Assembly (NCBI RefSeq): GCF_025506335.1
Contig: NZ_JANZYO010000002.1
Location: forward strand, 172,221 to 236,220
DNA: 64,000 nucleotides
Reading direction: 5' to 3'
Origin: Mumia quercus
Lineage (GTDB): Bacteria > Actinomycetota > Actinomycetes > Propionibacteriales > Nocardioidaceae
In this document: positions 4,315-45,307 of the stretch, one piece after another
Layout of the letters: every line of letters begins with the position of its first letter
How positions within the stretch are numbered: the stretch's first letter is position 1
Notes under the pieces: model-generated
What the model was told of the DNA's origin: nothing
Databases searched by the model: none
What the model saw: only the letters and a program-made list of their open reading frames with translations
Program-made: the position numbers and the translations under genes

Positions 4315-4315
4315 G

Positions 4316-9020: not shown

Positions 9021-9035
9021 CGGAATGGTGTTTCG
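9021..9035. promoter_or_regulatory. Second copy of the IclR-type operator candidate
   Basis: CGGAATGGTGTTTCG, sharing GGAA-N-GG-N-GTTTC with the site 100 bp upstream. It lies just before the CaiB start candidates at 9040 and 9082, as a repressor site overlapping the promoter would. Confidence 0.45.
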
Positions 9036-9081
9036 CACAATGGAACGTGACCAGTCCGACCTCCGCCCCGACCCCGCAGCG

Positions 9082-10275: not shown

Positions 10276-10300
10276 CGTGGCCGAACCGAAAGAAGAACCG

Positions 10301-17607: not shown

Positions 17608-17621
17608 ATGATATATCATTA
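17608..17621. promoter_or_regulatory. AT-rich operator D in the ABM/RCCR-like divergent promoter
   Basis: Contains a perfect 12-bp palindrome, ATGATATATCAT (17608-17619). The core GATATATCATT is identical over 11 bases to the reverse strand of site F (30727-30737). A -10-like TATGCT (17620-17625) lies 6 nt before the ATG at 17632, so the RCCR-like gene is probably leaderless and the operator would cover its promoter. Confidence 0.6.
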
Positions 17622-17631
17622 TGCTTCGGCT

Positions 17632-24229: not shown

Positions 24230-25014
24230 GGGGCGACCGCCGGGGTCACATGCCCGCCGAGCATGAGGTCACGTACGCGGTCGGGGTCGGCCGCGAGGTC
24301 GGACGCGGACTCGCAGGCCACGATCTGTCCCTTCTCCATGAAGTAGGCCCGGTCGACGAGCGAGAGGGCGACGTTGACGGACTGCTCGACGAGCAGCACG
24401 GCGGTCCCGCGTTCGTTGAGCCGGCGGACGAGCTCGATGAGTCCGCCGACGACCACGGGCGCGAGCCCGAGGGAGAACTCGTCGACGACGAGGATGCGCG
24501 GATCCTGCACGATCGCCTTGGCGAGGGCGAGCATCTGCCGCTCGCCGCCGGACAGCGTCGAGGCCGGCTGGTCACGTCGGGCGTACAGACGGGGGAAGAC
24601 GGCGAGAGCGGCGTCGACCGCGTCGTTCGCCCACGCCCGGTCCTCGATCGTGAACGCGTGCATCCGGAGGTTCTCGACGACGGTCAGCGAGCTGAACGTG
24701 GCTTGCCCGACGACCTGACCGAGGCCGCGCGCGATGCGCTCGCGCGTCGGCGCCGACGTGACGTCGACGCCCCCGAGGCGGACGGTGCCGGCGTCGGGGC
24801 GGAGCAGGCCGGCGAGGACCTTCAGCGTCGTGCTCTTGCCGACGCCGTTGGGTCCGAGGAGGGCGACCATCTCGCCCTCGTCGACGTGGAGGCTGGCGTC
24901 GAAGAGGACCTGCACCTGCCCGTACGAGCACGCGATGCCCTCGAGCGCGAGTGCAGGGCCGCCGGACCGCGGGGTGAGGATGTCGAGCCCGGCGTCACGA
25001 CGTCGGGAAATCAA
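24226..25014 (-). CDS. Liv-type ABC transporter ATPase (LivF-like)
   Basis: 262 residues. Walker A GPNGVGKSTTLK, signature TLSGGERQMLALA, Walker B ILVVDEFSLGLAP and VLLVEQSVNVALSL are all present. The E of Walker B follows D directly, as in LivF. The best start is the TTG at 25014 with GAGGGGG just upstream; it overlaps the end of the binding-protein gene by 20 bp. It works with the fused subunit downstream to power import. Confidence 0.88.
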   Translation of the reverse strand: MISRRRDAGLDILTPRSGGPALALEGIACSYGQVQVLFDASLHVDEGEMVALLGPNGVGKSTTLKVLAGLLRPDAGTVRLGGVDVTSAPTRERIARGLGQVVGQATFSSLTVVENLRMHAFTIEDRAWANDAVDAALAVFPRLYARRDQPASTLSGGERQMLALAKAIVQDPRILVVDEFSLGLAPVVVGGLIELVRRLNERGTAVLLVEQSVNVALSLVDRAYFMEKGQIVACESASDLAADPDRVRDLMLGGHVTPAVAP

Positions 25015-31721: not shown

Positions 31722-32468
31722 TCAGTGCTCGCGCAGCAGCGAGCCGAATCCCTGGATCTTGTCGTCGATGCCGTTGTCGCGCAGCGCCATCCACCAGGTG
31801 GCGGCGTTGATCGCGATGACCGGCTTGTCGAGCCAGCGCTCGGCCTCGTCGGCGAGCTCGGTCATGCACAGGTTCGTGCCGCACTGGACGAGTGCGTCGA
31901 CGTCGGAGTCGTTGACCGCCTGGAGGGACTCCCGCAACGTCTTCTCGGACACGTGCGCGATCGACACGGCTGTCGGACAGCTCAGGCCCTTGATCTCGCC
32001 GACCTCGAAGCCGAGCTCGGTGAAGAACTTGCGGACGTTCTCGTCGCCGATCGGGGTGTACGGCGTGATGATGCCGATCTTCTTGGCGCCGTACAGCTGG
32101 AGCGCGCGCTCGCACGCCTCCGCGCCCGTGGCGACACCGAGGCCGCCGGAGAGGTCCTTGATCTGCTGGACGAACTGGCGGTTGCCCTCCACGCCGTCCC
32201 AGAAGGTCTCCGCGCTCATACCCATGACCATGTAGTCGGGCTCCATGGTCATGATGCCCTCGACGCAGTCGGCCATCGCCGCACGGATCTGGACGAGGAG
32301 GTTCTGCATGCCCTCGTCGTCGGCGATCCGGCCGTCGCGGATGAGGATCCGGCCGTAGTGCGACGTGACGCCGGGGACGCGCATCATGTCGAACTCGGGC
32401 TGGACGATCGTGTTGGTGCTCGGGGCGATGACGCCGAACTTGCGGCGGTAACCGAGGCGGTCGGTCAT
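31722..32468 (-). CDS. Asp/Glu-racemase-superfamily protein, maleate isomerase/arylmalonate decarboxylase-like
   Basis: 248 residues. RRKFGVIAPSTNTIVQPEFDMMRVPGV at the start is typical of maleate cis-trans isomerase-like members. The two half-site cysteines can be sought in MGMSAETFWDG, where the first Cys is replaced by Ser/Ala, and VQCGTNLCMTELADE, where Cys is present. One active-site cysteine thus appears missing, as in some decarboxylases of the superfamily. Last gene of the operon; its ATG overlaps the membrane-protein stop. Maleate isomerases end maleimide/maleamate routes, which fits the imidase and amidase genes elsewhere. Confidence 0.75.
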   Translation of the reverse strand: MTDRLGYRRKFGVIAPSTNTIVQPEFDMMRVPGVTSHYGRILIRDGRIADDEGMQNLLVQIRAAMADCVEGIMTMEPDYMVMGMSAETFWDGVEGNRQFVQQIKDLSGGLGVATGAEACERALQLYGAKKIGIITPYTPIGDENVRKFFTELGFEVGEIKGLSCPTAVSIAHVSEKTLRESLQAVNDSDVDALVQCGTNLCMTELADEAERWLDKPVIAINAATWWMALRDNGIDDKIQGFGSLLREH

Positions 32469-33142
32469 GACAGGGAGGCTCCTTCGGGGACGGAGGGCTG
32501 CTCGGCGCGCGGGAGCCGCCTGCTGAGGCGGAGCGCGCCGATGAGGAAGCAGAGCTGGACGCCGGTGTTCGTGAGCTGCTCGATCCACTGCAGCGTCTCG
32601 GTCTGGTGCGGTCGGGCCGCCAACGGCGGGAGCACGAGCGTGCCGACGAGGTAGACGATGAACAGCCAGCGGCCGAGCTGGTCGCGGTGGCGTGCGGCGA
32701 GCATCGAGGCCATCGCCCCGACCGCGACGGCGCTCAGCGCGGCGATCGCGAGCATCGGCGTGAGGTTGCGCGCGGCACCGGAGATGCAGGCGCCGACGAA
32801 CGGGACGAGGGCGAACGGCACCCACGACACGACTCTGCCGACGTACACGCTCGCCAGCGCCCACGCGAGGGCGGAGAACCCGATCGCGAGGCAGGGGAAG
32901 AGCATCTGCTCGAGGAACGGGATCTCGATGCACGGACCGGCGACGAGGAGCTTCCACAACGCCTTGCCGAGCCCTCCCGCGGTGACGACCACGCCACCGA
33001 GCAGCGCGCCCGCGCGTACGGCCGGGAGCGACCTGCCGAGGGCGTGGGCCAGGACGAGGAGTCCCGCGCCGGCGAGGATCACGGGGACGAAGTCCTCGAT
33101 GGCGAGCGCCAGGCCGTACTCGACGCACGGATCGATCGCCAT
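32465..33142 (-). CDS. Multi-pass membrane protein of unknown function
   Basis: 225 residues with about six or seven hydrophobic helices (FVPVILAGAGLLVLAHAL, AGALLGGVVVTAGGLGKAL, FPCLAIGFSALAWALASVY, FALVPFVGACISGA, MLAIAALSAVAVGAMA, FIVYLVGTLVLPPL, GVQLCFLIGALRL). I recognise no family. Several cysteines lie near helix ends (DPCVE, GPCIEIPF). Start ATG shares one base with the SDR stop (TGATG). Being inside the operon, it may carry the substrate or product, or seat other enzymes at the membrane. Confidence 0.7.
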   Translation of the reverse strand: MAIDPCVEYGLALAIEDFVPVILAGAGLLVLAHALGRSLPAVRAGALLGGVVVTAGGLGKALWKLLVAGPCIEIPFLEQMLFPCLAIGFSALAWALASVYVGRVVSWVPFALVPFVGACISGAARNLTPMLAIAALSAVAVGAMASMLAARHRDQLGRWLFIVYLVGTLVLPPLAARPHQTETLQWIEQLTNTGVQLCFLIGALRLSRRLPRAEQPSVPEGASLS

Positions 33143-33972
33143 CAGACCTTCGCCTCCGCGTCGCTGAAGATGTCGCGCGACCGGAAGCTCGCGGCCATGA
33201 ACCGACGCATCGCCTTCGGCCCGGTCAGCCACGCGACGCGTGTGCCGTTCTTGGTCGCCGCGAGGAGCCGGTCGGCCAGCCACGGGGTGACGGTCTCGAC
33301 GCGGTCGCCGAGGATGTTGAAGATCTTGCGCGCCTTCTCGAACGCCTCGGGCTGCCCGTCGTAGTCGGCGAGGAGGAGGTCGGTCGCGACGATGCCGGGC
33401 GACAGGAACCCGACGCGGACGTCGGACCCCTTCGCCTCCTTGACCAGGGCCTCGGTCAGGTAGGTGACCCCGCGCTTGCTCGCACCGTAGATCGCCATCC
33501 CCGGCTGGATCTGTCCGTTGGAGCCGAAGCCCTCCATGTTCCAGACCCACCCGCCGCCGGCCTGCTCGCGCAGCCCGGCGAGCGCCACCGCGCAGCCGTT
33601 CATCGCCCCGACGAGGTTGGTGCGGACGACGTCGTCGGCAACGTCGGCGGAGACCTCGGTCATCGAGCGACGCGGCGCCGAGATCCCGGCGTTGTTGATC
33701 CACACGTCGACCCGACCGAAGGTCTGCGTCGCGTGGTCCCACAGCTTCTGCAGCGACTCGCGGTCGGTGACGTCGGCGGGCAGTCCGGTGACGCGGTCGG
33801 CGCCGTGCTCGGCGAGCGCGGCGACAGCCGTGTCGACCGCCGCCGACGAGCGCCCGCACACCACCACGCGGCACCCGCGCTGCAGGAGCTCGCCGGCGAG
33901 CCCGAGGCCGATGCCCCGGGTGCCGCCGGTGACGACGACGACGCGGCCGCCGCCCGCCGACGCCGTGCTCAC
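33142..33972 (-). CDS. Short-chain dehydrogenase with NYC1/NOL (chlorophyll b reductase)-like motifs
   Basis: 276 residues, GTG start. Cofactor motif TGGTRGIG (15-22), WINNAG (91-96) where most SDRs read NNAG, TNLVGAMNG, then WNMEGFGSNG (144-153). Active site Y162-x3-K166 (YGASK), then SPGIVATDLLL (191-201), RKIFNILGDRVETVTPWLADRL and WLTGPKAMRRF near the end. The NM(D/E)G-G-S stretch and the LTGxKAxxxF tail recall plant NYC1/NOL, which reduce the 7-formyl group of chlorophyll(ide) b. This resemblance is from memory and needs a search; a general SDR of another substrate remains possible. Confidence 0.72.
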   Translation of the reverse strand: MSTASAGGGRVVVVTGGTRGIGLGLAGELLQRGCRVVVCGRSSAAVDTAVAALAEHGADRVTGLPADVTDRESLQKLWDHATQTFGRVDVWINNAGISAPRRSMTEVSADVADDVVRTNLVGAMNGCAVALAGLREQAGGGWVWNMEGFGSNGQIQPGMAIYGASKRGVTYLTEALVKEAKGSDVRVGFLSPGIVATDLLLADYDGQPEAFEKARKIFNILGDRVETVTPWLADRLLAATKNGTRVAWLTGPKAMRRFMAASFRSRDIFSDAEAKV

Positions 33973-34964
33973 GCGGCCGGCTCCCAGGTCAGGAGCCCGT
34001 GGACGAAGTGCGTCGTACGCTCGCCGCTGAGCAGCTGCCACACGATCGACAGGTCGCGGGTCTGCGGGTCGAGGAGGAACTCGCGTCCGCGGATCTTCTC
34101 CACGCCGCGGGCGTCCGCGCCCATCAGGTGCTGCGTCGTGAACAGCGCGCGACCGTACGAGATCGCGTTGCCGAACACGTCCGGGCCGTCGTACTGGACC
34201 CGTGCACCGTCGCGGTAGCGGTCGAGCGTGTACGCACGGTCGAGCGCGCCCTCCCACGTGATGTGCTGGCGGGCGCGCAGCAGCGACTGCGGCTGGTGGT
34301 CGATGTGCACGCGGGTCTCGCCGACGGTCGTCTGCGTGGCGGCGTCCTCGACCGAGAGCGTCCCGGTCCAGGCACCCATCTCCTTCGTGGGCAGCACCTG
34401 CGGGATCGAGCCACGGCGCGTCTCGTCGGCGATCCACTGGTCGACGAACGCCTGCGTCTCCGGGTTGGTCTCGTGGTCGAACGTGCGCTTGTAGACGCCG
34501 TTGAAGACCGCGCACACCGCCCAGCCGTCGTGCAGCACGGACGAGTAGACCTGCGTCACGCCGTCGGGCAGCACCTGGTTCCAGGTGCGCAGGTCGGCCT
34601 GCCAGCCCGGGGAGTAGTAGTTGGCCTCGACGAAATAGCCGTACGGCTGCCCCGTCCCGTAGAAGTCCGGGCCGCAGTAGACGCGGTTCTGGTCGGAGTC
34701 GACGATCCCGAAGTCGAAGTGGGCGCCGAGCTCGAACCGGTTGCGGAGCGGACCGCTGCCCTCGAGGTTGGTGCGCATCCAGTAGCGCGACACCCCGTCC
34801 TCGACGACGCTGGCCCGCACCACGTGCTCGTAGCCGACGTGGTTACCCTGCGCGTCGAAGAGCGACGGACGACCGTGCCACTCCCCCTCGATGCGCTGCT
34901 GCCACTCGCTGGTGGCCGCCTCCGCCTCGCTCGCGCCGGAGGAGGCGTCCACGGTTGCGGTCAC
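33969..34964 (-). CDS. Unknown protein with two lipocalin-like halves
   Basis: 331 residues, GTG overlapped on both sides. No family recognised. It is rich in beta strands and Trp/Tyr and carries a G-x-W-x-G motif twice: GEWHGRPSLFDAQGN near residue 28 and GAWTGTLSVED near residue 197. Each is followed by strands with an aromatic-rich ligand-like pocket (RFELGAHFDFGIVDSD, then QHITWEGALDRAYTLDRY). This suggests two calycin/lipocalin-type barrels in tandem, a fold also used to bind bilins (inference). It might carry or present the tetrapyrrole-like substrate. Confidence 0.6.
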   Translation of the reverse strand: MTATVDASSGASEAEAATSEWQQRIEGEWHGRPSLFDAQGNHVGYEHVVRASVVEDGVSRYWMRTNLEGSGPLRNRFELGAHFDFGIVDSDQNRVYCGPDFYGTGQPYGYFVEANYYSPGWQADLRTWNQVLPDGVTQVYSSVLHDGWAVCAVFNGVYKRTFDHETNPETQAFVDQWIADETRRGSIPQVLPTKEMGAWTGTLSVEDAATQTTVGETRVHIDHQPQSLLRARQHITWEGALDRAYTLDRYRDGARVQYDGPDVFGNAISYGRALFTTQHLMGADARGVEKIRGREFLLDPQTRDLSIVWQLLSGERTTHFVHGLLTWEPAA

Positions 34965-35746
34965 CCGGCCACCCCGTTGTCGAGGAGCTGCGCGCGCACC
35001 TTCTCGGACGCGTCGTCACCGATGAGCTGGGCGACCTGGGCCCAGACCTTGTCGACCTCGGGGCTGAAGATCAGAGCGCGGTTGCGCGCGTCGCGCGCGG
35101 GCAGGTCGGTGTCGGCGACGTCGGCGACGACCTCCGCGGGCACGCCTCCGTCCAGCAGGCCCAGCCAGTGGTCGAGGTAGGTGGTGACCGCGCTCTCGAT
35201 GGCCACGAACGCATCGGTGTCGGCCCGGTTGACCAGCATCCACGGCGACATCATCGCGTTCTGGCGCGGGCCGATCTCGGCCTTGGTGAGTCCCTCCCAG
35301 GTCTGGACGTCCTCGAACGTCGGCGTGAGCGGCTCGTACGCCCAGTCGAGGTACGGGAGGTGGGTGCCGAGGTCGGCCCGCGGGATCAGGTCGAGGTGGA
35401 AGGCGAACGTGCCGTGGCCCTGCACCGAGTCGAGCGTGAAGTGCGGGATCGGCAGGCCCTCGCGGGTGAAGGCGAAGACCATGTGGCTGTCCAGGCCGAT
35501 CATGGCGACGGTCAGGCCGACGTACACGAGCTTGGCGACCGGCTCGTCCTCGCTCGCTGCGGCGAAGACACGGACCTCACCGACCGGGTCCGGGGACATG
35601 GGCGAGGTCAGGATCTGCGCCGGGCCACCGCCCTCCCCCGTGACCTCGACCAGACCGCGCTCGGCGACGACGCGCTCCCAGGCGCGCTGGCACAGACCGT
35701 GCGGCAGGCTCAGGCTCTCAGGCGCGACGGACTCGGTGGTGCTCAT
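34961..35746 (-). CDS. RCCR/bilin-reductase-superfamily-like protein 2 (divergent)
   Basis: 261 residues. Shares with the two other copies the order P-H (101-102, IPHFTLDSVQGHGTFAFHLDL), IPRADLGTHLPYLDWAYEPL (121-140), MMSPWMLVN and a C-terminal ARDARNRALIFSPEV helix, but is otherwise far diverged. Its N-terminal half reads EVRVFAAASEDEPVAKLVYVG. The ferredoxin-dependent bilin reductase fold is likely. It lies directly after the Rieske gene with an ATGA overlap, so the two are probably made together. A second substrate, a second reduction or a non-catalytic subunit are all possible. Confidence 0.55.
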   Translation of the reverse strand: MSTTESVAPESLSLPHGLCQRAWERVVAERGLVEVTGEGGGPAQILTSPMSPDPVGEVRVFAAASEDEPVAKLVYVGLTVAMIGLDSHMVFAFTREGLPIPHFTLDSVQGHGTFAFHLDLIPRADLGTHLPYLDWAYEPLTPTFEDVQTWEGLTKAEIGPRQNAMMSPWMLVNRADTDAFVAIESAVTTYLDHWLGLLDGGVPAEVVADVADTDLPARDARNRALIFSPEVDKVWAQVAQLIGDDASEKVRAQLLDNGVAG

Positions 35747-36966
35747 GCGGGGACCTCTTCCTCACGGGTCTTCTCGGGCATGCTGTCGGTGCGGGGCAGG
35801 TCGCCACGCTCCTCGCGCTCGGTCTGCTTGCCGAGCAGCTCCTTGCTGCGGACCTCCTTGAAGTTCCACGCCGACGCGAGCTCGGGAACCTCCTTGCGGG
35901 TCGGCGACGGGATCACGCGAGCCTCGACGCGGGCAGGGCCCTCACCCACGATCGTGTTGCCCTCGACCGACCAGCCGGCGTCGATGAGCTCCTGGCGGCG
36001 ACGGCGGTAGAGCACCGCGTTGTAGTCGCTCTTGACGTGGAGCTCGGACGACAGGTCGAACGGGAGCAGCTCGGGGCGGACGGCGTCGACGATCACCTGG
36101 TCCTCACGGAGCACCTTGAAGACACGGCGCAGCGCGTCGCGGTCTGCCCACTTCCCCTTGAAGAACGTGCGCAGCGCGACGAACTTGACGAGGGTGGTCT
36201 CCTCGTCGATCGGGATGTTGACGTCGAAGATCTTCATCGCGCCCATCGGGGTGCCGACCTCGAGCTGGATCATGTTGGGCAGGTACCACGTCGTGGAGAC
36301 GGGCACGGGCGGGCGGTTCTTGAGGTCCTGCTTGTTGGGGTTGATCAGGCCCCACATGCCCTTGGAGCGCGGCGGGTTGAGCTCCACGGACACCTTGCAG
36401 TGCCAGGGCGACTCCTCGATCTTGAGGTCGGGGACCTCCGGCTTCTCGCGGTTGCCGAAGACGCCGCCGTGCACGAACGGCGTGTGCGCGACGTCGACGC
36501 CGTTCTCGAGGATGCGCTCGTAGTTGGACTTCCAGAGGAACTCACCGCGCACCGCACGGTACGTCTCGGTGTCGTCGATCGCCGACCAGTCAGGGATCGG
36601 GGGGCGCTCCGACTCGGGGATGTCTCCCATGAAGACCCACACGAAGCCGTACTTCTCCTGGACCGGGTAGGAGTCGACGCGCGCCTTGCGCGGAATGCCC
36701 CGCTCCGGGTGCGCCGGGATCTTGCGCACGGCGCCGTCGGGCTCGTACTCCCAGCCGTGGTACGGGCAGACGATGCAGTCGTCCTTGATCTCGCCGCCCG
36801 ACAGCGCCGCACCGCGATGCACGCAGAGGTCGGACAGGCAGACGATCGAGTTGTCGCTGGTCTTGCGGTACAGCACGAGCTGCTGCCCGAGTAGCTTGAC
36901 CTTCTTCGGCTTGCCGGCGACGACGTCGTCGATGAACTCGACGGCATACCAGAAGTTCTTGAACAT
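35743..36966 (-). CDS. Rieske non-heme iron oxygenase, PAO/VanA-like
   Basis: 407 residues, ATG with AAGGAG 5 nt upstream. The Rieske [2Fe-2S] site is C48-x-H50 (CVHRG) and C67-x2-H70 (CPYHGW). The mononuclear iron site is ENGVDVAHTPFVH with D158, H161 and H166. The LENxxDxxHxxFxH arrangement is the one of the single-component-type oxygenases that include pheophorbide a oxygenase (PAO), Tic55 and vanillate demethylase. The C-terminal CxxC and membrane anchor of plant PAO are absent. It should insert oxygen into a ring compound using electrons from a separate reductase, none of which is encoded nearby. Confidence 0.85.
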   Translation of the reverse strand: MFKNFWYAVEFIDDVVAGKPKKVKLLGQQLVLYRKTSDNSIVCLSDLCVHRGAALSGGEIKDDCIVCPYHGWEYEPDGAVRKIPAHPERGIPRKARVDSYPVQEKYGFVWVFMGDIPESERPPIPDWSAIDDTETYRAVRGEFLWKSNYERILENGVDVAHTPFVHGGVFGNREKPEVPDLKIEESPWHCKVSVELNPPRSKGMWGLINPNKQDLKNRPPVPVSTTWYLPNMIQLEVGTPMGAMKIFDVNIPIDEETTLVKFVALRTFFKGKWADRDALRRVFKVLREDQVIVDAVRPELLPFDLSSELHVKSDYNAVLYRRRRQELIDAGWSVEGNTIVGEGPARVEARVIPSPTRKEVPELASAWNFKEVRSKELLGKQTEREERGDLPRTDSMPEKTREEEVPA

Positions 36967-36977
36967 CGGATCTCCTT

Positions 36978-37991
36978 CTAGCGTCGCCGGATGTCGGCGA
37001 TCTCCGGGCGGGGCTGCTCGGCCAGCAGCTCCAGGTCGTTCTTGGCCTCGACGTCCCCGCGCACGGTGGCGCGGAAGAACGACGTGACGGCGGCGGCGAG
37101 CGCCTCGCGCAGGGCGGCGACGTCGCCGGTCGGCGGGTCCTCGAGGAACCCGCGCGCGGTCGTGGGGTCGTCCGGGTGGACGGCCAGCATGTGGGTGGCG
37201 GCCTCGATCACGACGAGCCACGCCTCGGTGGTCGCCGGCAGGGCACGTTCCCAGGTCGCCGTGACAGGGTCGTGCTCCGGCGCGCCCGGGTCCTCGCCGT
37301 ACCGGACGGCGCTCGCGGCGACGACGCCGTCGGCCGTCCCGGCCAGCAGCATCACGGGCGCCTGGGCCGGCGACGGCAGCAGGGTGCTCGGGGGGTGGCC
37401 GAGCATCTGCGACGCCATCGTGTGCGCGGCGTACGTGGCGACGGCCCGCACCTCCGGGAACCACTGCGGGCTCGCGGACTGGAGCGCGACCGTCCCGCCG
37501 GCCGAGTGGCCGAAGAGGCCGACCGAGCCGGTGTCGAGGAGCCCTGCCAGCGGGCCGTCCTCCCCGAGCGCGGTGACGGCGTCGAGCACCGGGCGCAGCG
37601 CCTGGGTGGTCGGACCGGTGCCGTAGGTCTCGGGTCCGACCACCGCGAGGTCGACGCCAGGGCTGAGCCCGTAGTCGCCGGGGCCGTGCTCGCTGGGCGG
37701 GAACAGCTCGGCCACCCAGTCGTACGTGACCGCGACGAACCCGGCCTCGACGAGATGCACCGCGAGCCACGCGTACGCGTCGCTGCTGACGTTGACGCCT
37801 GGGAGGACGACCGCCAGCGGGTACGGCGCGCGCTCGGGGGCGGCCGGGAGCCGACCGCTCATCCGCTCGGCCGTCGTCGACGCCGCCCGCGCCGGGTAGC
37901 GCACGGTGACGTGCGCGGTGTCGTACGGGGCGGCGGCGCCCGGGACCCGCACCGCGGTCCGGAGCGCACGGACGAGGACGGGCTGGCTCAT
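36978..37991 (-). CDS. Alpha/beta-hydrolase, chlorophyllase/PAF-acetylhydrolase-like
   Basis: 337 residues. YPLAVVLPGVNVSSDAYAWL (57-76) provides the oxyanion-hole strand and GLFGHSAGGTVAL the nucleophile Ser163. A late His is seen in AATHMLAVHPDD. The N-terminal arrangement (PYPLAVVLPG-N-SS-AY-WLA-HLVEAGFVAVTYDW) resembles chlorophyllase and cutinase-like hydrolases, which split ester bonds of hydrophobic alcohols. In chlorophyll breakdown this would remove phytol. ATG overlaps the RCCR3 stop and the Rieske gene follows after 11 bp. Confidence 0.75.
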   Translation of the reverse strand: MSQPVLVRALRTAVRVPGAAAPYDTAHVTVRYPARAASTTAERMSGRLPAAPERAPYPLAVVLPGVNVSSDAYAWLAVHLVEAGFVAVTYDWVAELFPPSEHGPGDYGLSPGVDLAVVGPETYGTGPTTQALRPVLDAVTALGEDGPLAGLLDTGSVGLFGHSAGGTVALQSASPQWFPEVRAVATYAAHTMASQMLGHPPSTLLPSPAQAPVMLLAGTADGVVAASAVRYGEDPGAPEHDPVTATWERALPATTEAWLVVIEAATHMLAVHPDDPTTARGFLEDPPTGDVAALREALAAAVTSFFRATVRGDVEAKNDLELLAEQPRPEIADIRRR

Positions 37992-38812
37992 CGCGTCGGG
38001 TGTGCCTCGTGATCGAGGGCGCGCGGGAGGACGCGGTCGCCGCCCCACAGGGCGCGAACGAGCCGGTCGGTCGTCTCGGCGCCGAAGTAGCGCTCGCCCA
38101 TGACGTTGGCGGGATCGCGCTCGGCGATGTTGCGGCGGATCGCCTCGTCGTCGGCGGTGAGCGTGGCGCGCTCGGCGACCGGGACGGCCTCGGCCGCGTC
38201 GACCCAGCCGAGCCAGCGGTCGAGGTGCTCCTCGGCGACCTCGGTGACCAGTGCCGTCATCGCCTCGTCGGCGGGTGCCATGTGGCAGAACGCCGTCGGC
38301 GAGAGGCCCGCCCGGACGAAGGCGGAGCGGCTGATGAACGGCTCGAGCGAGCTGTCGTTCTGGAGCTGCTCCCACCGCGCGTTGACGGGCTCGTAGTAGC
38401 GGTCGAAGGAGTCGACGTCGGTGACGAGGTAGCTGCGCGGGACCGAGTCGAGGAAGAACCAGCCCTGCGGGAAGCAGCCGAGCGCCATCCCGAAGTGCGG
38501 CACCTTCACCTGCGGGCCGAGCCAGATCGTGAGGTGCACGTTGCAGAAGCCGGCGGCGGCGTTCTCCATGTGCGAGTGGACCATCCAGTCGATCTCCGGG
38601 CCGGCGTACGTCCGGACACGACCCTTGGCGCCGGTGTCGCCGGCGAAGTCCTCGAGAGCCTCCGACGACGGGTCGCGCTCGACGTCGAAGCGGTCCATGA
38701 CGCGGTCCTTCAGGCGCTCGACGAGTGCCAACCAGGCCTGGAACGTCTCGGTGACGTCGGTCGGACCCGACTCGTCGAGATGCTCCTGGACGAACTTCAG
38801 ACTCTGGCTCAC
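37988..38812 (-). CDS. Red chlorophyll catabolite reductase (RCCR)-like protein 3
   Basis: 274 residues from the GTG at 38812, which has AGGAG 7 nt upstream; a GTG at 38848 would add 12 residues. Best RCCR pattern of the three: IWLGPQVKVPHFGMALG (PH at 105-106), LDSVPRSYLVTDVDSFDRYYEP (122-142), ISRSAFVRAGLSPTAF (160-175), DRWLGWVDAAEAV, then ADDEAIRRNIAERDP (220-234) and RYFGAETTDRLVRAL. Plant RCCR shows the same order of F-VR-SPT, a catalytic-region D-x-x-(I/L)-R and FG-E-ADRV. First gene of the eight-gene operon; promoter with site E lies just upstream. Confidence 0.7.
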   Translation of the reverse strand: MSQSLKFVQEHLDESGPTDVTETFQAWLALVERLKDRVMDRFDVERDPSSEALEDFAGDTGAKGRVRTYAGPEIDWMVHSHMENAAAGFCNVHLTIWLGPQVKVPHFGMALGCFPQGWFFLDSVPRSYLVTDVDSFDRYYEPVNARWEQLQNDSSLEPFISRSAFVRAGLSPTAFCHMAPADEAMTALVTEVAEEHLDRWLGWVDAAEAVPVAERATLTADDEAIRRNIAERDPANVMGERYFGAETTDRLVRALWGGDRVLPRALDHEAHPTR

Positions 38813-38973: not shown

Positions 38974-40428
38974 TCAGATCGGGTACGCGGTCGCGCCCAG
39001 GCCGGCGCCGCCCGCCCGGAACGCCGCCGGCGCGTGGACGACGCAGGTCTGCACGTGCTCGAGGATCCCCTCGTCGCCGTACTCGCGCCCCCACCCCGAA
39101 CGCTTCACTCCACCGAAGGGGGCCCGCAGGGACATGCCCGTCCGGTTGTGCGTGTTCACGAAGGTGAAGCCCGCATCGAGCCGCGCGGCGAGAGCGAAGG
39201 CACGCTCCTCGTCCACCGACCACACCGACGCGCCGAGCCCGAGCTCGCCGGCGTTGGCCCGCACGACCGCCTCGTCCTCGGTGTCGAAGGAGAGCACGGG
39301 CAGGGTCGGGCCGAACTGCTCGTCGGCGACGACCGCGTCGGTGTCCGAGGCGCCGAGGACCAGCGTCGGCAGCACGAAGTAGCCGTCGGACAGCGTCGTC
39401 CCCGGATCCACCGTGCCGACGGGGACGACCTCGGCTCCCGCGGCACCTGCCGCGTCGACCAGGTCGCGGACCCGCTGCGCGGAGGCGGCGCTCACCACCG
39501 GCCCCATCGTGACGCCGGCGGACAGCGGGTCGCCGACGCGCAGCACCCGCTCGGCGGCCGCGCGCAGACCGGCGACCACCTCGTCGTAGCGCGACCGGTG
39601 GACGTACAAGCGCTTGGCCGCCATGCACACCTGCCCGCTCGTCGCGAAGGACGCCATCAGCAGGCGCTCGGCGACAGCGTCGTCGAAGGCCGCGTCGGCG
39701 AGCAGGATCGCGGGGTCGTTGCCCCCGAGCTCCAGCAGCGACGGCGTCAGCGCCCCGGCGGCCGTACGCGCGATCGCCCGACCGGCGACGTCGCCGCCGG
39801 TGAATGCGACACGGTCGACGTCGGGGTGGCCGACGAGCGCCGTCGCGGTCTCGGCGTCGCCGTGGACCACCTGGAGGAGGCCCTCGGGCAGCACCGTGGC
39901 GAGGGTGGCGACGACCTCGCCCACCGCGAACGGCGCCAGCGGGGACGGCTTCACGACGACGGCGTTGCCCGCCACCAGCGCCGGTGCGACCTTCAGCATC
40001 GCGAGGATGACCGGCGCGTTCCAGGGGGTCACCGCGGCGACCACCCCGTACGGGCGGTGGCGCATCAGCAGCCGGCCCTGGGCGTCGTCGATCTCGCGGT
40101 CGACGAGCAGCTCCTCCGCCCGGCCGGCGACCCAGCGCATCGCTGTGACGGCGAAGCCGGCCTCGCCCCGGCAGTCGGCCAGCGGCTTGCCCGTCTCGCG
40201 GGCCATCAGCTCGGCGACGGCGTCGAGCCGCGGCTCGAGGAGGTCGGCGGCCGCGCGCAGGGCAGCCGCCCGCTCCGCGACGGCGACCTCGCGCCACGCG
40301 CGCTGCGCGGACCGCGCCCGCCCGACCGCGGCGTCGACGGCCGACGGGTCGTCGAACACCACCTCCCCGACCACCTCGCTCGTACGGGCGGGGTTCTCCC
40401 GGCGCGCGCCGGCGGCCGTGACGGTCAC
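38974..40428 (-). CDS. NAD(P)-dependent aldehyde dehydrogenase
   Basis: 484 residues, GTG start 4 bp after the monooxygenase stop. PYGVVAAVTPWNAPV gives the cofactor strand, LLELGGNDPAI the general-base glutamate, SFATSGQVCMAAKR the catalytic cysteine, and EQFGPTLPVL and NTHNRTGMSLRAPFGGVKRSG the C-terminal motifs. Oxidises an aldehyde to the acid. Last gene of a six-gene overlapped operon with a second aldehyde dehydrogenase, two flavin oxygenases and a lyase. Confidence 0.9.
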   Translation of the reverse strand: MTVTAAGARRENPARTSEVVGEVVFDDPSAVDAAVGRARSAQRAWREVAVAERAAALRAAADLLEPRLDAVAELMARETGKPLADCRGEAGFAVTAMRWVAGRAEELLVDREIDDAQGRLLMRHRPYGVVAAVTPWNAPVILAMLKVAPALVAGNAVVVKPSPLAPFAVGEVVATLATVLPEGLLQVVHGDAETATALVGHPDVDRVAFTGGDVAGRAIARTAAGALTPSLLELGGNDPAILLADAAFDDAVAERLLMASFATSGQVCMAAKRLYVHRSRYDEVVAGLRAAAERVLRVGDPLSAGVTMGPVVSAASAQRVRDLVDAAGAAGAEVVPVGTVDPGTTLSDGYFVLPTLVLGASDTDAVVADEQFGPTLPVLSFDTEDEAVVRANAGELGLGASVWSVDEERAFALAARLDAGFTFVNTHNRTGMSLRAPFGGVKRSGWGREYGDEGILEHVQTCVVHAPAAFRAGGAGLGATAYPI

Positions 40429-40432
40429 CGCG

Positions 40433-41617
40433 TCACCCCGCCGGCTCGAGGGGCCGCAGCGAGTCGATCATCGACGTCCGACGCAGGTACGCCCGCGACG
40501 CGGCCGGGTCGGCGGCCAGCGCCCGCAGCTCGGCGTGGTGCGCGGCGCGCGCAGCCGGGTCCTGCTCACGCAGCTGCTTCCAGTTGTCGTGGGTGACCGT
40601 GCGGACGTACGAGAGCGCGACGTCGCGACGCCCTTCGACGACCGTGTCGAGAGCTGCCAGGTCGGCCTCGCCCGTGAGGACGTCGGCCAGCGCGCGTGCG
40701 GTGAGGACGGCGTCGTGGATCCCGCTGTTCATGCCCATCCCGCCGAGCGGGTTGTTGACGTGGGCGGCGTCGCCGACGAGCAGCACACGGCCGGTGCGGA
40801 AGCGCTCGGCCACCCGCTGGTGCACGTGGTAGAGCGACGCGTGCAGCAGCTGCCACGGCCGGCCGAGATCGGCGACGCCGCGCAGCCGCTCCTGCACGCG
40901 CTCCGCGTCGACCTCCACCTCTGCCGGGCTGTTCGGGTCGGTCGGGAAGAGGATCCGCCAGTGCTCCGGCGTCTTGAGCAGCACGAGCCACTCGTGCGGG
41001 TCGAAGACGTAGTTGACGTCGGCGATCCCCGGCAGCACGCTCGCGAGGTCCTCCGTCGTCGACGCGACGAGGAAGCGCTCGGGGTAGGTGATCCCCTCGA
41101 ACGCAGCACCCGTGCTCTTGCGCACGACCGAGCTCGCACCGTCGGCGCCGACCACCCAGTCGGCGCTCCAGGAACGCCCGCTCGCCGTGGTGACGGTGAC
41201 GCGGTCGTCGGCCTGCTCGACCGACGTGGCCGCCTCGCCGAACTCGACGACGCACCCGTCGTGCCGGAGCAGCCGGTCGAGGAGGATCGGCGTCAGCTTG
41301 CTCTGCTCGCACTGCACCCGGAACGGGTACGGGGTGTCCTCGGACAAGATGCCGAGGTCGAGCTCGGCCACGGGACCGCTCTCGCGGTCGCGGTACTGGA
41401 AGGCCTGGGAGACGATCCCGCGCTCGATCAGCTCGTCGAGGACGCCGAGCTCGGCGAGCATCTCCAGCGTCGGCGGGTGGTACGTGCTCGCGCGCGACTC
41501 CGAGGAGAGCGACTCCCCCGCCTCGAGCACGGTCACCGCATGGCCGGACCGCGCCAGTACCAGCGCCGTAGTGAGGCCGACCGGGCCCGCTCCCACGACC
41601 AGGATCTCGTTCGTCAC
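40433..41617 (-). CDS. FAD-dependent monooxygenase (class A, PHBH/UbiH type)
   Basis: 394 residues from a GTG with AGGAGG 8 nt upstream. GAGPVG (9-14) binds FAD, DWVVGADGASSVVRKS carries the DG motif and VGDAAHVNNPLGGMGMNSG the GD motif. It hydroxylates an activated ring using NAD(P)H and oxygen. Relatives include 6-hydroxynicotinate and resorcinol-type hydroxylases; the substrate here cannot be read. GTGA overlap with the upstream lyase gene. Confidence 0.88.
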   Translation of the reverse strand: MTNEILVVGAGPVGLTTALVLARSGHAVTVLEAGESLSSESRASTYHPPTLEMLAELGVLDELIERGIVSQAFQYRDRESGPVAELDLGILSEDTPYPFRVQCEQSKLTPILLDRLLRHDGCVVEFGEAATSVEQADDRVTVTTASGRSWSADWVVGADGASSVVRKSTGAAFEGITYPERFLVASTTEDLASVLPGIADVNYVFDPHEWLVLLKTPEHWRILFPTDPNSPAEVEVDAERVQERLRGVADLGRPWQLLHASLYHVHQRVAERFRTGRVLLVGDAAHVNNPLGGMGMNSGIHDAVLTARALADVLTGEADLAALDTVVEGRRDVALSYVRTVTHDNWKQLREQDPAARAAHHAELRALAADPAASRAYLRRTSMIDSLRPLEPAG

Positions 41618-42501
41618 TGTGCTGCCTCCTCGGCGTACGCCGCCTCCAGGACGAGCTGGTCCCCCAGCCCGACGAGTGCGGTCAGGTCGTCCCACGCCAT
41701 CCGTGAGACGTCACCGGCGTGGCCGGTGCGGGCGATCGCCGCGTACGTGTCCGCGGCCGCACGAGCGGCGGCCAGCAGCGCGGAGACCGGGTGGATCACG
41801 AGGCGGACGCCGAGCGCGGCGAGGGTCTCGTCGTCGGGCCCCTCCACGGAGCCGGCCGCCTCCGAACGGTTCATGACCAGCGGCACCGCGCCACCGAGCA
41901 CCGAGGAGACCTCGGCCAGCTCCGGCACGCCGGCGCCCTCGACGAAGACCGCGTCGGCCCCGGCCGCGACGAACGCACGCGCGCGCGCGACCACTTCGTC
42001 CAGCCCTTCGACGGACAGCGCGTCCGTCCGCGCGACGATCACGACGTCGGTCCCGGCCTCCACGGCAGCACGGACCCGACCGGCGGCCTCGGCGACCCCC
42101 ACCACGGCCTTGCCGGTCATGTGACCGCACCGCTTGGGCGCCACCTGGTCCTCCAGGTGCAGACCGGCGACGCCCGCCGCGGCGTACGCACGCGTCGTGT
42201 GCCGTGCCTGCAGCGCGTTGCCATAGCCGGTGTCGGCGTCGGCGAGCAGCGGGACGCCGTCGAGCGCCGGCACGACCTCGCGAGCGCGGGCGGCGATCTG
42301 GCTGCCGTGGACGAAGCCGAGGTCGGGAAGGCCGAGCCCGACCGCCGACGCGACCGCGCCGGACAGGCACGCCGCGCGGGCGCCGGACACGACCGCGAGC
42401 CGCGCGGTCACCGCGTCGTACACCCCTGGGAGGTGGACGACCTCGTCACCGGCGAGGAGCGTGCGCAGCGCAGCGGCAGGAGTCGAGGCTGACCCCGTCA
42501 T
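41614..42501 (-). CDS. Isocitrate lyase/PEP mutase-family C-C lyase (2-methylisocitrate/2,3-dimethylmalate lyase-like)
   Basis: 295 residues. VVHLPGVYDAVTARLAVVSG, PLLADADTGYGNA (metal aspartates), GLHLEDQVAPKRCGHMTGK (catalytic K-R-C-G-H) and VIVARTDAL are all present. The retained KxCGH cysteine marks a C-C lyase rather than a phosphonomutase. Relatives split 2-methylisocitrate, oxaloacetate or 2,3-dimethylmalate. A substituted malate made from a substituted maleate would be a fitting substrate in this neighbourhood (inference). Confidence 0.85.
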   Translation of the reverse strand: MTGSASTPAAALRTLLAGDEVVHLPGVYDAVTARLAVVSGARAACLSGAVASAVGLGLPDLGFVHGSQIAARAREVVPALDGVPLLADADTGYGNALQARHTTRAYAAAGVAGLHLEDQVAPKRCGHMTGKAVVGVAEAAGRVRAAVEAGTDVVIVARTDALSVEGLDEVVARARAFVAAGADAVFVEGAGVPELAEVSSVLGGAVPLVMNRSEAAGSVEGPDDETLAALGVRLVIHPVSALLAAARAAADTYAAIARTGHAGDVSRMAWDDLTALVGLGDQLVLEAAYAEEAAQ

Positions 42502-44003
42502 CGCCCGTGCAGCGCGAAGCTGCCCTCGACGCCGACGACACGAGCGTTGGTGAAGCAGCGGATCGTCTCCACCGTGCCCTCCTCGCCCAGGCCGGACAGT
42601 CCCCAGGCCGGCCGCGGCGTCATGAGGTGCAGGCTCATGATGGTCGAGCCGTTGACCTTGACCTCGCCGGCGTGCACCTGCCGGGCGAACGCGAGCGCCC
42701 GCTCCGTGTCGGTGCCGAGCACGTACCCCTCCAGCCCGTACGCGGTGCCGTTGGCGAGCGCGAGCGCCTCGTCCTCGGTCGTGTAGGTGTGCACGGTCGC
42801 GATCGGACCGAAGATCTCCTCGCGCGCGTCCTCGCCCGCCACGCCCGTGACGAGCGCCGGCGCCAGGAAGTTGCCCGTGCCGGGGACCGCGGTGCCGGTG
42901 TGGACCTCGCCACCTGCGGCGCGCAGCGCGTCGAGCGCGGACTCCAGGCGGGCACGGTGGACGGAGTGGACGATCGGCCCCAGGTCCGAGTCGGCGTCGA
43001 GCGGATCGCCTGCGCGCAGCCCGGAGAGCCGCTGCACCGCCCGGGAGACGACCTCGTCGGCCAGCTCCTCGGGGACGATGAGTCGCCCGAGCGCACGGCA
43101 CCACTGGCCGTTGAGCGTGGTCAGCAGGTCGACGGCCGCACGAGCGGCCGCCTCCGGGTCGGCGTCGGGCATGACGACGAGCGGGTTGTTGCCACCGAGC
43201 TCGAGCTGCAGCGCAGCGAGCTTTTCGGCGCACGCCGCGGCGACCGCGCGACCGCCGACGGCTCCGCCGGTGAACGACACCGCGCGGATCCGTGGATCGG
43301 TGACGACCGCGCCGCCCACGGCGGGACCACCCTGCAGCAGCTGGAACACGCCGCCGTCCACGCCGGCGTCGGCGAGCACCTGCGCGACCGTGGTGCCGAG
43401 GAGCGTCGTCGCGTACGGGGCGTACTCGCTGGGCTTGAGGATCGTCGGGCACCCGGCGGCCAGCGCGCTCGCGACCTTGTGCGCCGCCATCGGCGCGGGG
43501 GCGTTCCACGGGACCAGGCACACGGCGGGCCCGACCGGCAGGCGCAGGACCTCGACGGCCTGACCGTTCTCGCCCGTCACCGGGGGGTCGACGAGGGCGC
43601 CCGAGCGGAGCATCTCGGCGGCCAGGTGGAAGGCGCCGGGCACGATCATGCCCACGATGGACGTCTGCCGGACCGGGACGCCGGTGGCGAAGGCCTCCAG
43701 CGCAGCCAGCTCCGCCTGCCGGCCCTCGAGGGCGACCGCGATCGCGTCGAGCAGGTCGGCGCGCTCGGCCGGTGACGTCGAGGACCACGCGCCGCTGGTG
43801 TGCGCGGCCTGCGCAGCGGCGAGCGCGCGCTCGACGGACTCCGGCGCGCTCGCGACGGCGCTGCCCAGCGCAGCACCGCGCGCCGGGTCCTCGAGGACGA
43901 GGTCGAGGGTGCCCGTCGCGGCAGCGACCTCGCCCGCGACCACCTCGACGAGCGCGGGCAGCGTGACCGCTGCAGCCGTCCCGTCCTGCGCCGTGCTCGT
44001 CAT
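42498..44003 (-). CDS. Aldehyde dehydrogenase (second copy)
   Basis: 501 residues, ATG overlapped with the upstream stop. PAVCLVPWNAPAPMA, LQLELGGNNPLVV, TTLNGQWCRALGR (catalytic Cys) and EEIFGPIATVHTYTTEDEALALANGTAYGL are present. LMTPRPAWGLSGLGEEGT near the end is unusual for the family. Differs strongly from the copy at 38974, so the two probably serve different aldehydes. Part of the six-gene operon. Confidence 0.9.
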   Translation of the reverse strand: MTSTAQDGTAAAVTLPALVEVVAGEVAAATGTLDLVLEDPARGAALGSAVASAPESVERALAAAQAAHTSGAWSSTSPAERADLLDAIAVALEGRQAELAALEAFATGVPVRQTSIVGMIVPGAFHLAAEMLRSGALVDPPVTGENGQAVEVLRLPVGPAVCLVPWNAPAPMAAHKVASALAAGCPTILKPSEYAPYATTLLGTTVAQVLADAGVDGGVFQLLQGGPAVGGAVVTDPRIRAVSFTGGAVGGRAVAAACAEKLAALQLELGGNNPLVVMPDADPEAAARAAVDLLTTLNGQWCRALGRLIVPEELADEVVSRAVQRLSGLRAGDPLDADSDLGPIVHSVHRARLESALDALRAAGGEVHTGTAVPGTGNFLAPALVTGVAGEDAREEIFGPIATVHTYTTEDEALALANGTAYGLEGYVLGTDTERALAFARQVHAGEVKVNGSTIMSLHLMTPRPAWGLSGLGEEGTVETIRCFTNARVVGVEGSFALHGR

Positions 44004-45307
44004 CCCTGTCCCGCCTTCGCCTTCGCGTCCACTGCGTCGGGCGTGGTCAGCCCGATCCACGACTCGTCGGTGACCAGCAGCTGGGCGAGGTCGAGCTTGC
44101 CCCGCTCGGCGGGGAACGCCTGGACCAGGCCCATCGCGGTGTCACGTACGGCGCGACCGATGACGTTGTCCATCAGTGCGCCCGACGTCCCACACATCTT
44201 CAACGACGTGATGGCCACCGCGAAGGCTTTCTCGCAGACCGAGCCCTTGGCGAGCTTCCAGTTCTTGACGACCTCGGGCTTGGGCAGGATCGGCGGGTCG
44301 CTCGCCTCGAGCTCCACCTGGTAGCGCAGCCACAGGTGCATGTCGGTCAGGTCGTGCTGGGCCTCGCCGATCAGGACCTGGTGCATCGGCGAGGACGCGA
44401 TCGGCTTGCCGGTGTCGGCGAAGGTCGCCTTCATCGTGCGCGCGAACGCGTAGTCCCACGCGCCCTTCGCGATGCCCGCGTAGATCGCGGCGATCGCGAT
44501 CTGGTTGCCCACCCACGACCCGCGCGACATCGACGTCGCCCGGGCGAATCCCGCAGGGACCGTCAGGGCGTGGTCGGCGGGGACGAAGCAGTCCTCCATG
44601 ACGAGACCGAAGTTGTCCGAGGCCCGCATGCCCAGACCGCTCCACTCCGTACGCGGCCGGATGCCCTCGGAGTCACGGGCGACGAGGAAGAGCGAGATGC
44701 CGTCGATGCCGTCGATGTCGGCGCGACGTGCGGTCACGAGGTAGTAGTCGGCGGTGCCGGAGAGGCAGCCGAACGACTTCTCGCCGTTGAGGCTCCAGCC
44801 TCCCTCGACCGGCGTGGCGGTGGTCGAGATGAGGACGTTGGCGTTGCTCGCCTTGGCGGCCTCGCTCGCGAAGTTGGCGAGGCACCGCTCCTCGGTCCCC
44901 ATCAGGTGCAGGACCTTCTCGGCGAACGCCCGGACCTCCTCGGCCTCGTCGTCCTCGTACAGCCCCGCCTCCAGCGCCGCGAGCGGCAGCAGGCCGCGCG
45001 ACGAGGCCGAGCAGTGGAAGAAGTACGCGAGCGCGGTCGACCCGCAGACCGTGCCGAGCGCGTACGTGGTGGCGACCAGGTCGCGCAGGCCTCCGCCGAG
45101 GCCGCCGTACTCCTTCGGGACGACGAGCCCGAGGAGCCCGGCGTCGGCGAGGAGCTTCACGTGGCCCTCGGGGAAGGCGCCGCTGGCATCGGCTGCCTGA
45201 GCGGCGTCGCGCACCGCGGGGAGGATCTCCTCGACCCGCTCGGCGCGCGCACGCTCCTCGGGGCTGAGGTCGGTCAAGAGGTGTTCGGCAGTCAGCATGG
45301 CCGTCAT
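44000..45307 (-). CDS. Acyl-CoA dehydrogenase-fold flavin monooxygenase (class D) candidate
   Basis: 435 residues with the acyl-CoA dehydrogenase fold (GLLGLVVPKEYGGLGGG, WSLNGEKSFGCLSGTAD, GLGMRASDNFGLVMEDCFVP). The E-G-T-N catalytic-base segment of true dehydrogenases is missing near the end (AMGLVQAFPAERGKLDLAQLL). The neighbouring upstream gene starts with a flavin reductase domain. Both facts fit a two-component oxygenase such as HsaA or DszC, which uses reduced flavin. True dehydrogenase activity is the alternative. Confidence 0.78.
   Translation of the reverse strand: MTAMLTAEHLLTDLSPEERARAERVEEILPAVRDAAQAADASGAFPEGHVKLLADAGLLGLVVPKEYGGLGGGLRDLVATTYALGTVCGSTALAYFFHCSASSRGLLPLAALEAGLYEDDEAEEVRAFAEKVLHLMGTEERCLANFASEAAKASNANVLISTTATPVEGGWSLNGEKSFGCLSGTADYYLVTARRADIDGIDGISLFLVARDSEGIRPRTEWSGLGMRASDNFGLVMEDCFVPADHALTVPAGFARATSMSRGSWVGNQIAIAAIYAGIAKGAWDYAFARTMKATFADTGKPIASSPMHQVLIGEAQHDLTDMHLWLRYQVELEASDPPILPKPEVVKNWKLAKGSVCEKAFAVAITSLKMCGTSGALMDNVIGRAVRDTAMGLVQAFPAERGKLDLAQLLVTDESWIGLTTPDAVDAKAKAGQG

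Follow-up and report, generated by a model that had tools for sequence, protein, structure and literature searches.

Gene content and the RCCR-type reductases

A 64,000-nucleotide stretch of the genome of Mumia quercus, which was analysed at its full length and is referred to below as the window, carries at 31722-38812 an operon of eight genes, two of which encode proteins of the red chlorophyll catabolite reductase (RCCR) type. Mumia is an actinomycete of the family Nocardioidaceae; the host genome is 4.1 Mb in size and the window is situated on its contig 6. All eight reading frames lie on the minus strand and all are open by a reading-frame check. The intergenic gaps, taken from 38812 down to 31722, are -4, 11, -4, -4, -4, -1 and -4 bp, and the nearest upstream gene is separated from the operon by 161 bp. 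An earlier note on this DNA, made from the letters alone, had described eight minus-strand genes joined by overlaps or an 11-bp gap, which is borne out by overlaps of 1-4 bp and a single 11-bp gap; the motifs that it named for the short-chain dehydrogenase (SDR), the hydrolase and the Rieske oxygenase were also found at their places in the translations. Gene starts were set by a simple gene caller, and the Pfam scan covered 50 of the 58 called genes of the window (all except w29 and w51-w57). The genes are given here in order of transcription, with counts out of 80 referring to the comparison loci introduced in the next section.

w37, 37988..38812, minus strand: RCCR-A, a member of the red chlorophyll catabolite reductase family that heads the operon (above the PF06405 cut-off, E 9.2e-16)
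w36, 36978..37991, minus strand: alpha/beta hydrolase, possible ester hydrolase (GHSAG at residue 161)
w35, 35743..36966, minus strand: Rieske non-haem iron oxygenase of the VanA_C type (PF00355 2e-24, PF19112 6e-23)
w34, 34961..35746, minus strand: RCCR-B, second reductase, with predicted RCCR/bilin-reductase fold (AlphaFold2 pLDDT 95.9; Foldseek top match RCCR 2zxk, E 2.6e-11)
w33, 33969..34964, minus strand: 331-aa double lipocalin-like barrel protein (AlphaFold2 pLDDT 91.5)
w32, 33142..33972, minus strand: SDR, NOL/NYC1-like (adh_short 1.2e-41)
w31, 32465..33142, minus strand: small protein of hydrophobic character, probably membrane-bound (reaches no Pfam cut-off; homologues at 32/80 loci)
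w30, 31722..32468, minus strand: arylmalonate decarboxylase/EutA-like protein (PF17645 7.5e-16, over cut-off; 50/80 loci)

Two of these proteins had been called RCCR-superfamily-like in the earlier note, and this holds for both, for w37 by Pfam and profile comparison and for w34 by its predicted fold. Against the Pfam family RCC_reductase (PF06405, cut-off 24.9 bits), the search that the note had proposed, w37 scores 58.2 bits and w34 falls below (12.4 vs 24.9 bits, E 0.09), while a third homologue elsewhere in the window, absent from the note's account, lies over the cut-off at 56.3 bits:

w18, 17632..18462, plus strand: further RCCR-A-type gene (PF06405 E 3.6e-15, over cut-off)

A profile of 33 RCCR-A sequences finds the solved Arabidopsis RCCR at E 1e-21 (80.7 bits), and the bilin reductases at E 1e-8 to 4e-3 with no more than 38 bits (plastid bilin reductase 1e-8, phytochromobilin synthase 2e-6). 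The solved proteins that it reaches at E <= 0.01 comprise six sequences, every one a tetrapyrrole reductase. These scores place RCCR-A in the RCCR family. In the case of RCCR-B, a profile of eight sequences searched against the PDB at E <= 10 reached phytochromobilin synthase at 0.017 and three RCCR chains at 0.42-0.54, and RCCR-B genes are recovered by the RCCR-A profile at E values down to 1.2e-15. It is the predicted structure that settles the question: by Foldseek the RCCR-B model has RCCR as its top match (TM up to 0.73), followed by phytochromobilin synthase, PcyA and PebB, and 43 of the 45 matches at E <= 0.001 are RCCR or bilin reductases, the other two being chains of Ycf2/Orf2971-FtsHi complexes. 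Because its predicted structure matches RCCR first, we count RCCR-B as having the RCCR/bilin-reductase fold despite its failure in Pfam. The likeness to Arabidopsis RCCR (2zxk/3aga) is thus one of sequence for RCCR-A and of predicted fold for RCCR-B.

To our knowledge, all known relatives of this fold act on tetrapyrroles. One explanation of the operon is that its substrate is a haem-derived bilin (biliverdin, bilirubin or a urobilin) or a phycobilin rather than a chlorophyll derivative, with the Rieske oxygenase acting on an already open chain. RCCR-A does match bilin reductases (w37 against the Pfam family PF05996 at E 4e-5, below cut-off, and its profile at the 1e-8 given above), but it scores them lower than RCCR. 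Ferredoxin-dependent bilin reductases, including the pre-PcyA proteins of heterotrophic bacteria, share with the present proteins a fold superfamily and heterotrophic hosts (PMC10151467), and in that paper, Rockwell 2023, RCCR and related sequences, together with ones from Candidatus Schekmanbacteria, form the outgroup. A haem-oxygenase partner for the cluster was sought: one is encoded in the genome, on another contig, and neither haem oxygenase nor V4R is matched among the 50 scanned genes of the window. A NOL-like SDR, moreover, would be an odd companion for a haem product. We regard a bilin substrate as unlikely; a chlorophyll-derived one is favoured because of the kinship of the operon's proteins with RCCR and NOL, and it is from this kinship that we infer it.

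Two observations concern further RCCR-A copies. The neighbours of w18 at 16565-19322 encode an alpha/beta hydrolase, an ABM-domain protein and an NAD epimerase-like protein, and are conserved within the genus. Three Microbulbifer genomes each contain two strong RCCR-A matches, one copy having a stop codon.

Companion enzymes and conservation of the gene set

The Rieske oxygenase w35 had been credited with a PAO-type iron site. Both iron motifs are present (C-x-H...C-x-x-H from residue 48, D-x-x-H-x4-H from 158), but since they are common among Rieske oxygenases they are not specific to PAO, and a match to the PaO domain is lacking. The nearest solved relatives are SxtDIOX (3.9e-51) and NdmA (1.1e-46), with SxtT also among the best, and membership of the PAO family was ruled out on these two grounds; w35 may nevertheless work like PAO. 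Across the whole genomes of the host itself (G000), G252 and G294, searched with PaO PF08417 at E <= 10, there was a single weak match (E 0.83), on a different contig. A 2009 survey states that, outside the cyanobacteria, PaO-like bacterial sequences generally do not have the PaO motif (PMC2716323).

The relatives of w35 bring in a different explanation, namely that the RCCR fold here serves a non-tetrapyrrole substrate to which it was secondarily adapted, another conjugated N-heterocycle such as a xenobiotic or a natural product with a pyrrole or lactam ring. In its favour, the best solved relatives of w35 are SxtDIOX/SxtT and the methylxanthine demethylases, the combination of Rieske oxygenase, hydantoinase and amidases is found in other N-heterocycle pathways, and the lower-pathway enzymes near the operon are generic. 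The riboflavin pathway likewise combines hydrolytic degradation of a ring with a Rieske reaction; we considered riboflavin catabolism as the identity of the present genes and rejected it, since it differs (PMC12746152). An N-heterocycle of this kind has to contend with the solved matches of RCCR-A at E <= 0.01, all six of them tetrapyrrole reductases, with the Foldseek result for RCCR-B, in which 43 of the 45 matches at E <= 0.001 belong to such reductases, and with the presence of two to three RCCR-type reductases together with a NOL-like SDR. We think it improbable, and rate it a little below the bilins.

A chlorophyllase-like hydrolase had also been proposed. The GHSAG motif is there in w36, but the protein lies under the cut-offs of both Chlorophyllase and PETase families; its best Pfam match is PETase PF12740, at 20.2 of the 28 bits required, which we take to be a chlorophyllase-type family. 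With a sub-threshold score and polyester hydrolases as its nearest solved relatives, w36 was ruled out as a member of the chlorophyllase family.

The SDR w32 carries WINNAG at residue 91, NMEGFGS at 145, YGASK at 162 and LTGPKA at 249. All NOL scores and the tree used an approximate version of the Arabidopsis NOL sequence. Against this approximate NOL, w32 scores 141 bits, with 38% identity over residues 1-250. It is the best of the 17 matches in its own genome, where every candidate was scored (the next has 100 bits, the others at most 62.5), and it is also the top match across 198 genomes sampled from the phylum, where no more than 13 candidates of any one genome were scored and the next has 112 bits. 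The NYC1/NOL-like character claimed for the SDR is therefore upheld. In a tree of 42 rows, from which two background SDR rows without a reading frame were left out, the approximate NOL falls on the side of 23 cluster SDRs; 4 of the 18 background SDRs fall there too, and the cluster SDRs on that side are not one clade. Membership of w32 in the NOL/NYC1 group is likely, judged with this approximate query. A second NOL-like SDR lies outside the window in the same genome (contig 8, 423344-424051, L120; 100 bits against the approximate NOL).

The double-barrel protein w33 has no Pfam match at E <= 1, DUF3598 included. Its model resembles DUF3598/BFA1 double-barrel proteins in fold (Foldseek top matches BFA1, 3.3e-8, and a Nostoc DUF3598 protein, 4.4e-7), but it shares only 9-12% identity with them; from the modelled fold, a pigment-holding role may be suggested. 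The last gene, w30, matches EutA TIGR02990 at 2e-20, below cut-off. We did not accept it as a maleate isomerase, as it lies under both the EutA and the arylmalonate-decarboxylase equivalog cut-offs; counting against that identity too, the Cys of its C-G-T-N stretch, presumably the catalytic one, is replaced by Val in the aligned homologues of G252 and G294.

In order to compare the cluster between genomes, relatives were found by scanning genome contigs for RCCR-B, and 80 of 125 loci were kept; the presence of RCCR-B is thus by construction. The actinobacterial hosts include Nocardioides, Actinomadura, Nocardia, Nonomuraea, Streptosporangium and Actinoplanes, and the further hosts comprise numerous Anaerolineae along with additional Chloroflexi, Microbulbifer, Pseudomonadales and members of other groups. 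In L051, L068 and L090 the simple caller called no gene at all, and on some other contigs it called few. For the 54 loci that extend over at least 18 kb, counted with family profiles built partly from the 80 loci, w33 is present in 53, the Rieske gene in 50, the SDR in 47, the hydrolase in 45 and RCCR-A in 44; RCCR-B lies within 150 bp of a same-strand Rieske gene in 46 and of w33 in 45. When the rest of the genome is considered, the Rieske gene is found in 54/54 and RCCR-A in 53/54. The four loci that do not contain the Rieske gene have it elsewhere in all four genomes (E 1e-129 or better), some 31-36 kb away by coordinates. Ten loci do not contain RCCR-A: in nine of their genomes a strong match lies outside the locus (E 1.7e-72 or better), at a distance of tens of kb in some and on a different contig in others, and in the tenth, L072, the sole RCCR-A match sits at the position of RCCR-B. 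Because the gene set recurs across phyla with its order mostly kept, we take the operon to be more than a chance arrangement.

Closer to M. quercus, PF06405 genes occur two to a genome in 6/6 genomes of the genus (its own included) and in none of 52 other relatives, 58 relatives having been searched. In a phylum sample, 3/396 genomes match PF06405, namely its own, G252 and G294; in both of the latter, RCCR-A, Rieske, RCCR-B and w33 are clustered as four genes.

Three minor observations were made on these loci. L039 and L043, metagenome-assembled genomes (MAGs) labelled Bifidobacterium breve, have a cluster layout like that of the uncultured actinobacterium L042, and the label looks wrong. In Anaerolineae loci (e.g. 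L063:4786-7833), three families that match nothing in Pfam, with w33-like N-termini and possibly lipocalin-like, stand just before the core. A DUF3891-type protein is also found directly before the core in Anaerolineae loci, again for example in L063.

A proposed route of tetrapyrrole breakdown

Our conclusion, which we hold with somewhat better than even confidence, is that the operon encodes the upper half of a bacterial pathway for the catabolism of tetrapyrroles, most likely chlorophyll-derived (pheophorbide- or phyllobilin-type) pigments, working like the plant PAO/phyllobilin route and partly homologous to it. The steps of the plant route involve NYC1/NOL, HCAR, SGR, PPH, PAO and RCCR (PMC8219035). 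The operon resembles it in bringing an RCCR-family reductase, a NOL-like SDR, an alpha/beta hydrolase and a Rieske oxygenase together in one transcription unit. It is unlike it in being bacterial, in having a VanA_C-type Rieske protein that does not contain a PaO domain, two to three reductases and an extra double-barrel protein, and in having neighbours fit for further breakdown. The bacterial ring-opening and reduction route proposed in the earlier note accordingly stands in part, in the RCCR kinship, the NOL-like SDR and the accompanying Rieske protein, and falls in its PAO and chlorophyllase identities, while chlorophyll as the substrate is inferred.

In the proposed sequence of events, the hydrolase w36 would remove an ester, the NOL-like SDR w32 would reduce a carbonyl, and the Rieske oxygenase w35 would open or trim the macrocycle oxidatively. 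The saturation of bridge double bonds, and with it the break-up of the pigment, would then fall to the two to three reductases of the RCCR fold, with ferredoxin or rubredoxin supplying the electrons and the double barrel of w33 perhaps holding or isomerising the open chain. Flavin monooxygenases, a hydantoinase/lactamase and amidases encoded nearby would convert the pyrrolic lactams or imides to substituted maleates, and from these compounds CoA-transferases, hydratases and C-C lyases could lead on to central metabolism. Gene content, predicted folds, homology and conserved linkage are what was observed here; the substrate, the order of the steps and every reaction are deduced from them.

A number of results weigh against this conclusion. 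The assignments of substrate and activity are predictions from sequence and modelled fold. A larger RCCR-B profile, of 45 sequences, reaches RCCR at E 0.05 at best, and of its six matches at E <= 1, three are RCCR chains (0.05-0.07) while the other three are unrelated proteins (0.69-0.99). In a sequence alignment, RCCR-A has Ala where Arabidopsis RCCR has Glu154, a residue that we take to be catalytic, and the invariant D106 of RCCR-B aligns with that position; the invariant D233 of RCCR-A does align with Asp291. Among the nine genomes with RCCR-A outside the locus, two (L054 and L063) have a sole strong copy, which contains one stop codon. In the Pfam scan, none of the eight operon genes encodes a ferredoxin, PaO PF08417 is not matched by w35 at E <= 1, and w36 scores 11.4 of 26 bits against Chlorophyllase PF07224 (E 0.14, below cut-off), its nearest solved relatives being polyester hydrolases (E 1.7e-10). 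As to the SDR, the NOL query is approximate, its join to the cluster SDRs is supported at 83/81, short of the 95/80 mark of the tool, the SDR is absent from 7/54 loci, and the stretches read of G252 and G294 hold no w32 homologue, their best matches to the approximate NOL scoring 68 and 62 bits. Staygreen is found in 0/18 genomes with this cluster, although the controls likewise gave no match at all. Finally, of eight lower-pathway proteins of the window that were scanned against NCBIfam, w50 alone passes a curated cut-off.

With regard to electron donors, a rubredoxin-motif protein occurs in three Microbulbifer loci, and the one that was checked is a rubredoxin/reductase fusion, which is a plausible donor; two crude motifs found no ferredoxin-like short proteins among those called at the 80 loci.

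Among the papers listed, the nearest to this cluster is Rockwell 2023 on pre-PcyA (PMC10151467). Among the matches listed in the open-licence literature of PMC, preprints not being covered, no bacterial RCCR catabolic cluster was found, which is no proof of absence; to this extent the statement in the earlier note that no bacterial operon of this kind is established holds good. Bacterial Staygreen homologues offer a partial parallel, in that a plant chlorophyll-breakdown family is likewise represented in non-photosynthetic bacteria, where its physiological role is described as unknown (PMC8531759); they differ in that Staygreen is not found in the 18 cluster genomes searched, in a search whose controls gave no match either. 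The 2009 survey terms the source of RCCR genes in cyanobacteria and land plants 'problematical', and the homologues that it gives beyond land plants are cyanobacterial (PMC2716323). Chlorophyll turnover amounts, according to one paper, to about a billion tons per year (PMC12930011). If our conclusion is correct, a soil-type bacterium and members of several other phyla would have a route for eating chlorophyll-like pigments. We know of no defined bacterial pathway for the carbon skeleton of chlorophyll, and an operon with RCCR- and NOL-like enzymes in heterotrophs of several phyla makes both the origin of RCCR and the fate of the chlorophyll skeleton directly testable. A bolder version of this conclusion would have complete aerobic mineralisation of chlorophyll or phyllobilins by bacteria, with ring opening by a non-PAO Rieske enzyme, stepwise reduction by RCCR-type enzymes working in pairs, and conversion of the pyrrole units, by way of imides and dialkylmaleates, to acyl-CoA and pyruvate, plants having taken RCCR and NOL from such heterotrophs; we consider this tentative, and on balance doubtful.

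Neighbouring genes and a possible lower half

Twelve neighbours of the operon in the window, likewise absent from the earlier note, have homologues in at least 9 of the 80 loci: w45, w38, w39, w41, w42, w50, w49, w21, w48, w9, w40 and w13. The neighbouring genes that bear on a lower pathway are as follows.

w38, 38974..40428, minus strand: aldehyde dehydrogenase (PF00171 3.8e-130; 39/80 loci)
w39, 40433..41617, minus strand: FAD monooxygenase, FAD_binding_3 (PF01494 2.2e-62; 38/80 loci)
w40, 41614..42501, minus strand: C-C lyase of the PEP-mutase/isocitrate-lyase family, PrpB-like (PF13714 1.1e-35; TIGR02317 2e-61, below cut-off; 10/80 loci)
w41, 42498..44003, minus strand: aldehyde dehydrogenase (PF00171 5.6e-109; 26/80 loci)
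w42, 44000..45307, minus strand: acyl-CoA-dehydrogenase-fold flavoprotein, possibly a monooxygenase (PF02770/PF02771; 25/80 loci)
w43, 45314..46633, minus strand: flavin reductase fused to an HMGL-like part (PF01613 2.7e-46, PF00682 1.5e-7)
w44, 46825..47484, plus strand: GntR/FCD regulator (PF00392, PF07729)
w45, 47498..49117, minus strand: tandem nitrilase-superfamily hydrolase (PF00795 1.1e-46, two stretches; 44/80 loci)
w48, 51273..51938, minus strand: isochorismatase-type hydrolase, possible amidase (PF00857 1.7e-35; 16/80 loci)
w49, 51938..53146, minus strand: CaiB-type CoA-transferase (PF02515 1.1e-133; succinyl-CoA:mesaconate type 2.5e-80, below cut-off)
w50, 53204..54133, plus strand: HMG-CoA-lyase-like C-C lyase (PF00682 3e-36; NF004283 281 bits, cut-off 246)
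w9, 8046..8903, minus strand: CitE/RipC-like C-C lyase (PF03328 2.6e-38; NF038242 1e-45, below cut-off)
w10-w12, 9025..12581, plus strand: CoA-transferase, cyclase-family hydrolase and MmgE/PrpD protein (PF02515, PF04199, PF03972; homologues in G252 at 58-66% identity)
w13, 12578..14044, plus strand: hydantoinase/allantoinase-type amidohydrolase (PF01979; allantoinase NF004839 1e-69, below cut-off; 9/80 loci)
w22-w24, 21371..26272, minus strand: branched-chain-type ABC importer (PF02653, PF00005; homologues in G252)

A homologue of the nitrilase w45 immediately precedes RCCR-A in many loci. Hydantoinase B occurs in G252 and in three MAG loci (L079, L088 and L109), its representative being nearest the caprolactamase kind, below that cut-off, and its partner looks, from the start of its sequence, like hydantoinase A. 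An aconitase-family large subunit is present in 15 loci, mostly of Chloroflexi; in L063, the one checked, it exceeds three subfamily cut-offs of NCBIfam and has an adjacent small subunit. The presence of hydantoinase, amidase, CoA-transferase, aconitase and C-C lyase families suggests, as far as family membership can indicate, a lower half in which a cyclic imide or lactam is hydrolysed and a substituted maleate is then hydrated and cleaved. Oxidation of tetrapyrroles classically yields maleimides and haematinic acid imide.

Alternatively, the eight genes may merely detoxify phototoxic pigments, the catabolic neighbours serving other substrates and being linked by chance. Lower-pathway genes do differ among lineages, as expected if so, yet nitrilase, FAD monooxygenase, HMGL, CoA-transferase, isochorismatase and CitE-like genes lie beside the four-gene cluster of both G252 and G294, with 44-62% identity to their counterparts in the window; an AMDase-like gene is also found nearby. 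We regard detoxification alone as very improbable, and retain the view that operon and neighbours form the two halves of one catabolic pathway.

Of the importer genes, w24, for which Pfam gave no match, is taken by its position to encode the binding protein; 21371-24229 encodes a single protein of 952 aa, in which two permease stretches of the branched-chain type are combined with an ATPase. At 478-7971 the plus strand carries CoA-transferase, MmgE/PrpD, MaoC-like, thiolase-like and acyl-CoA dehydrogenase genes. Most sister-genome stretches end short of that side; G398, whose stretch reaches there, has no homologue of w3-w8, and in L106 (Nocardia transvalensis) w4-w8 lie beside the cluster. 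The stretches 19446-21322 and 30785-31426 encode a sortase and two proteins that look secreted and have LPKTG close to the C-terminus, a neocarzinostatin-family domain being present in one of the two; surface capture of the substrate is a possible role for them. Homologues of the neocarzinostatin-type protein are found in 16 of the 80 loci, 13 of these being Nocardia.

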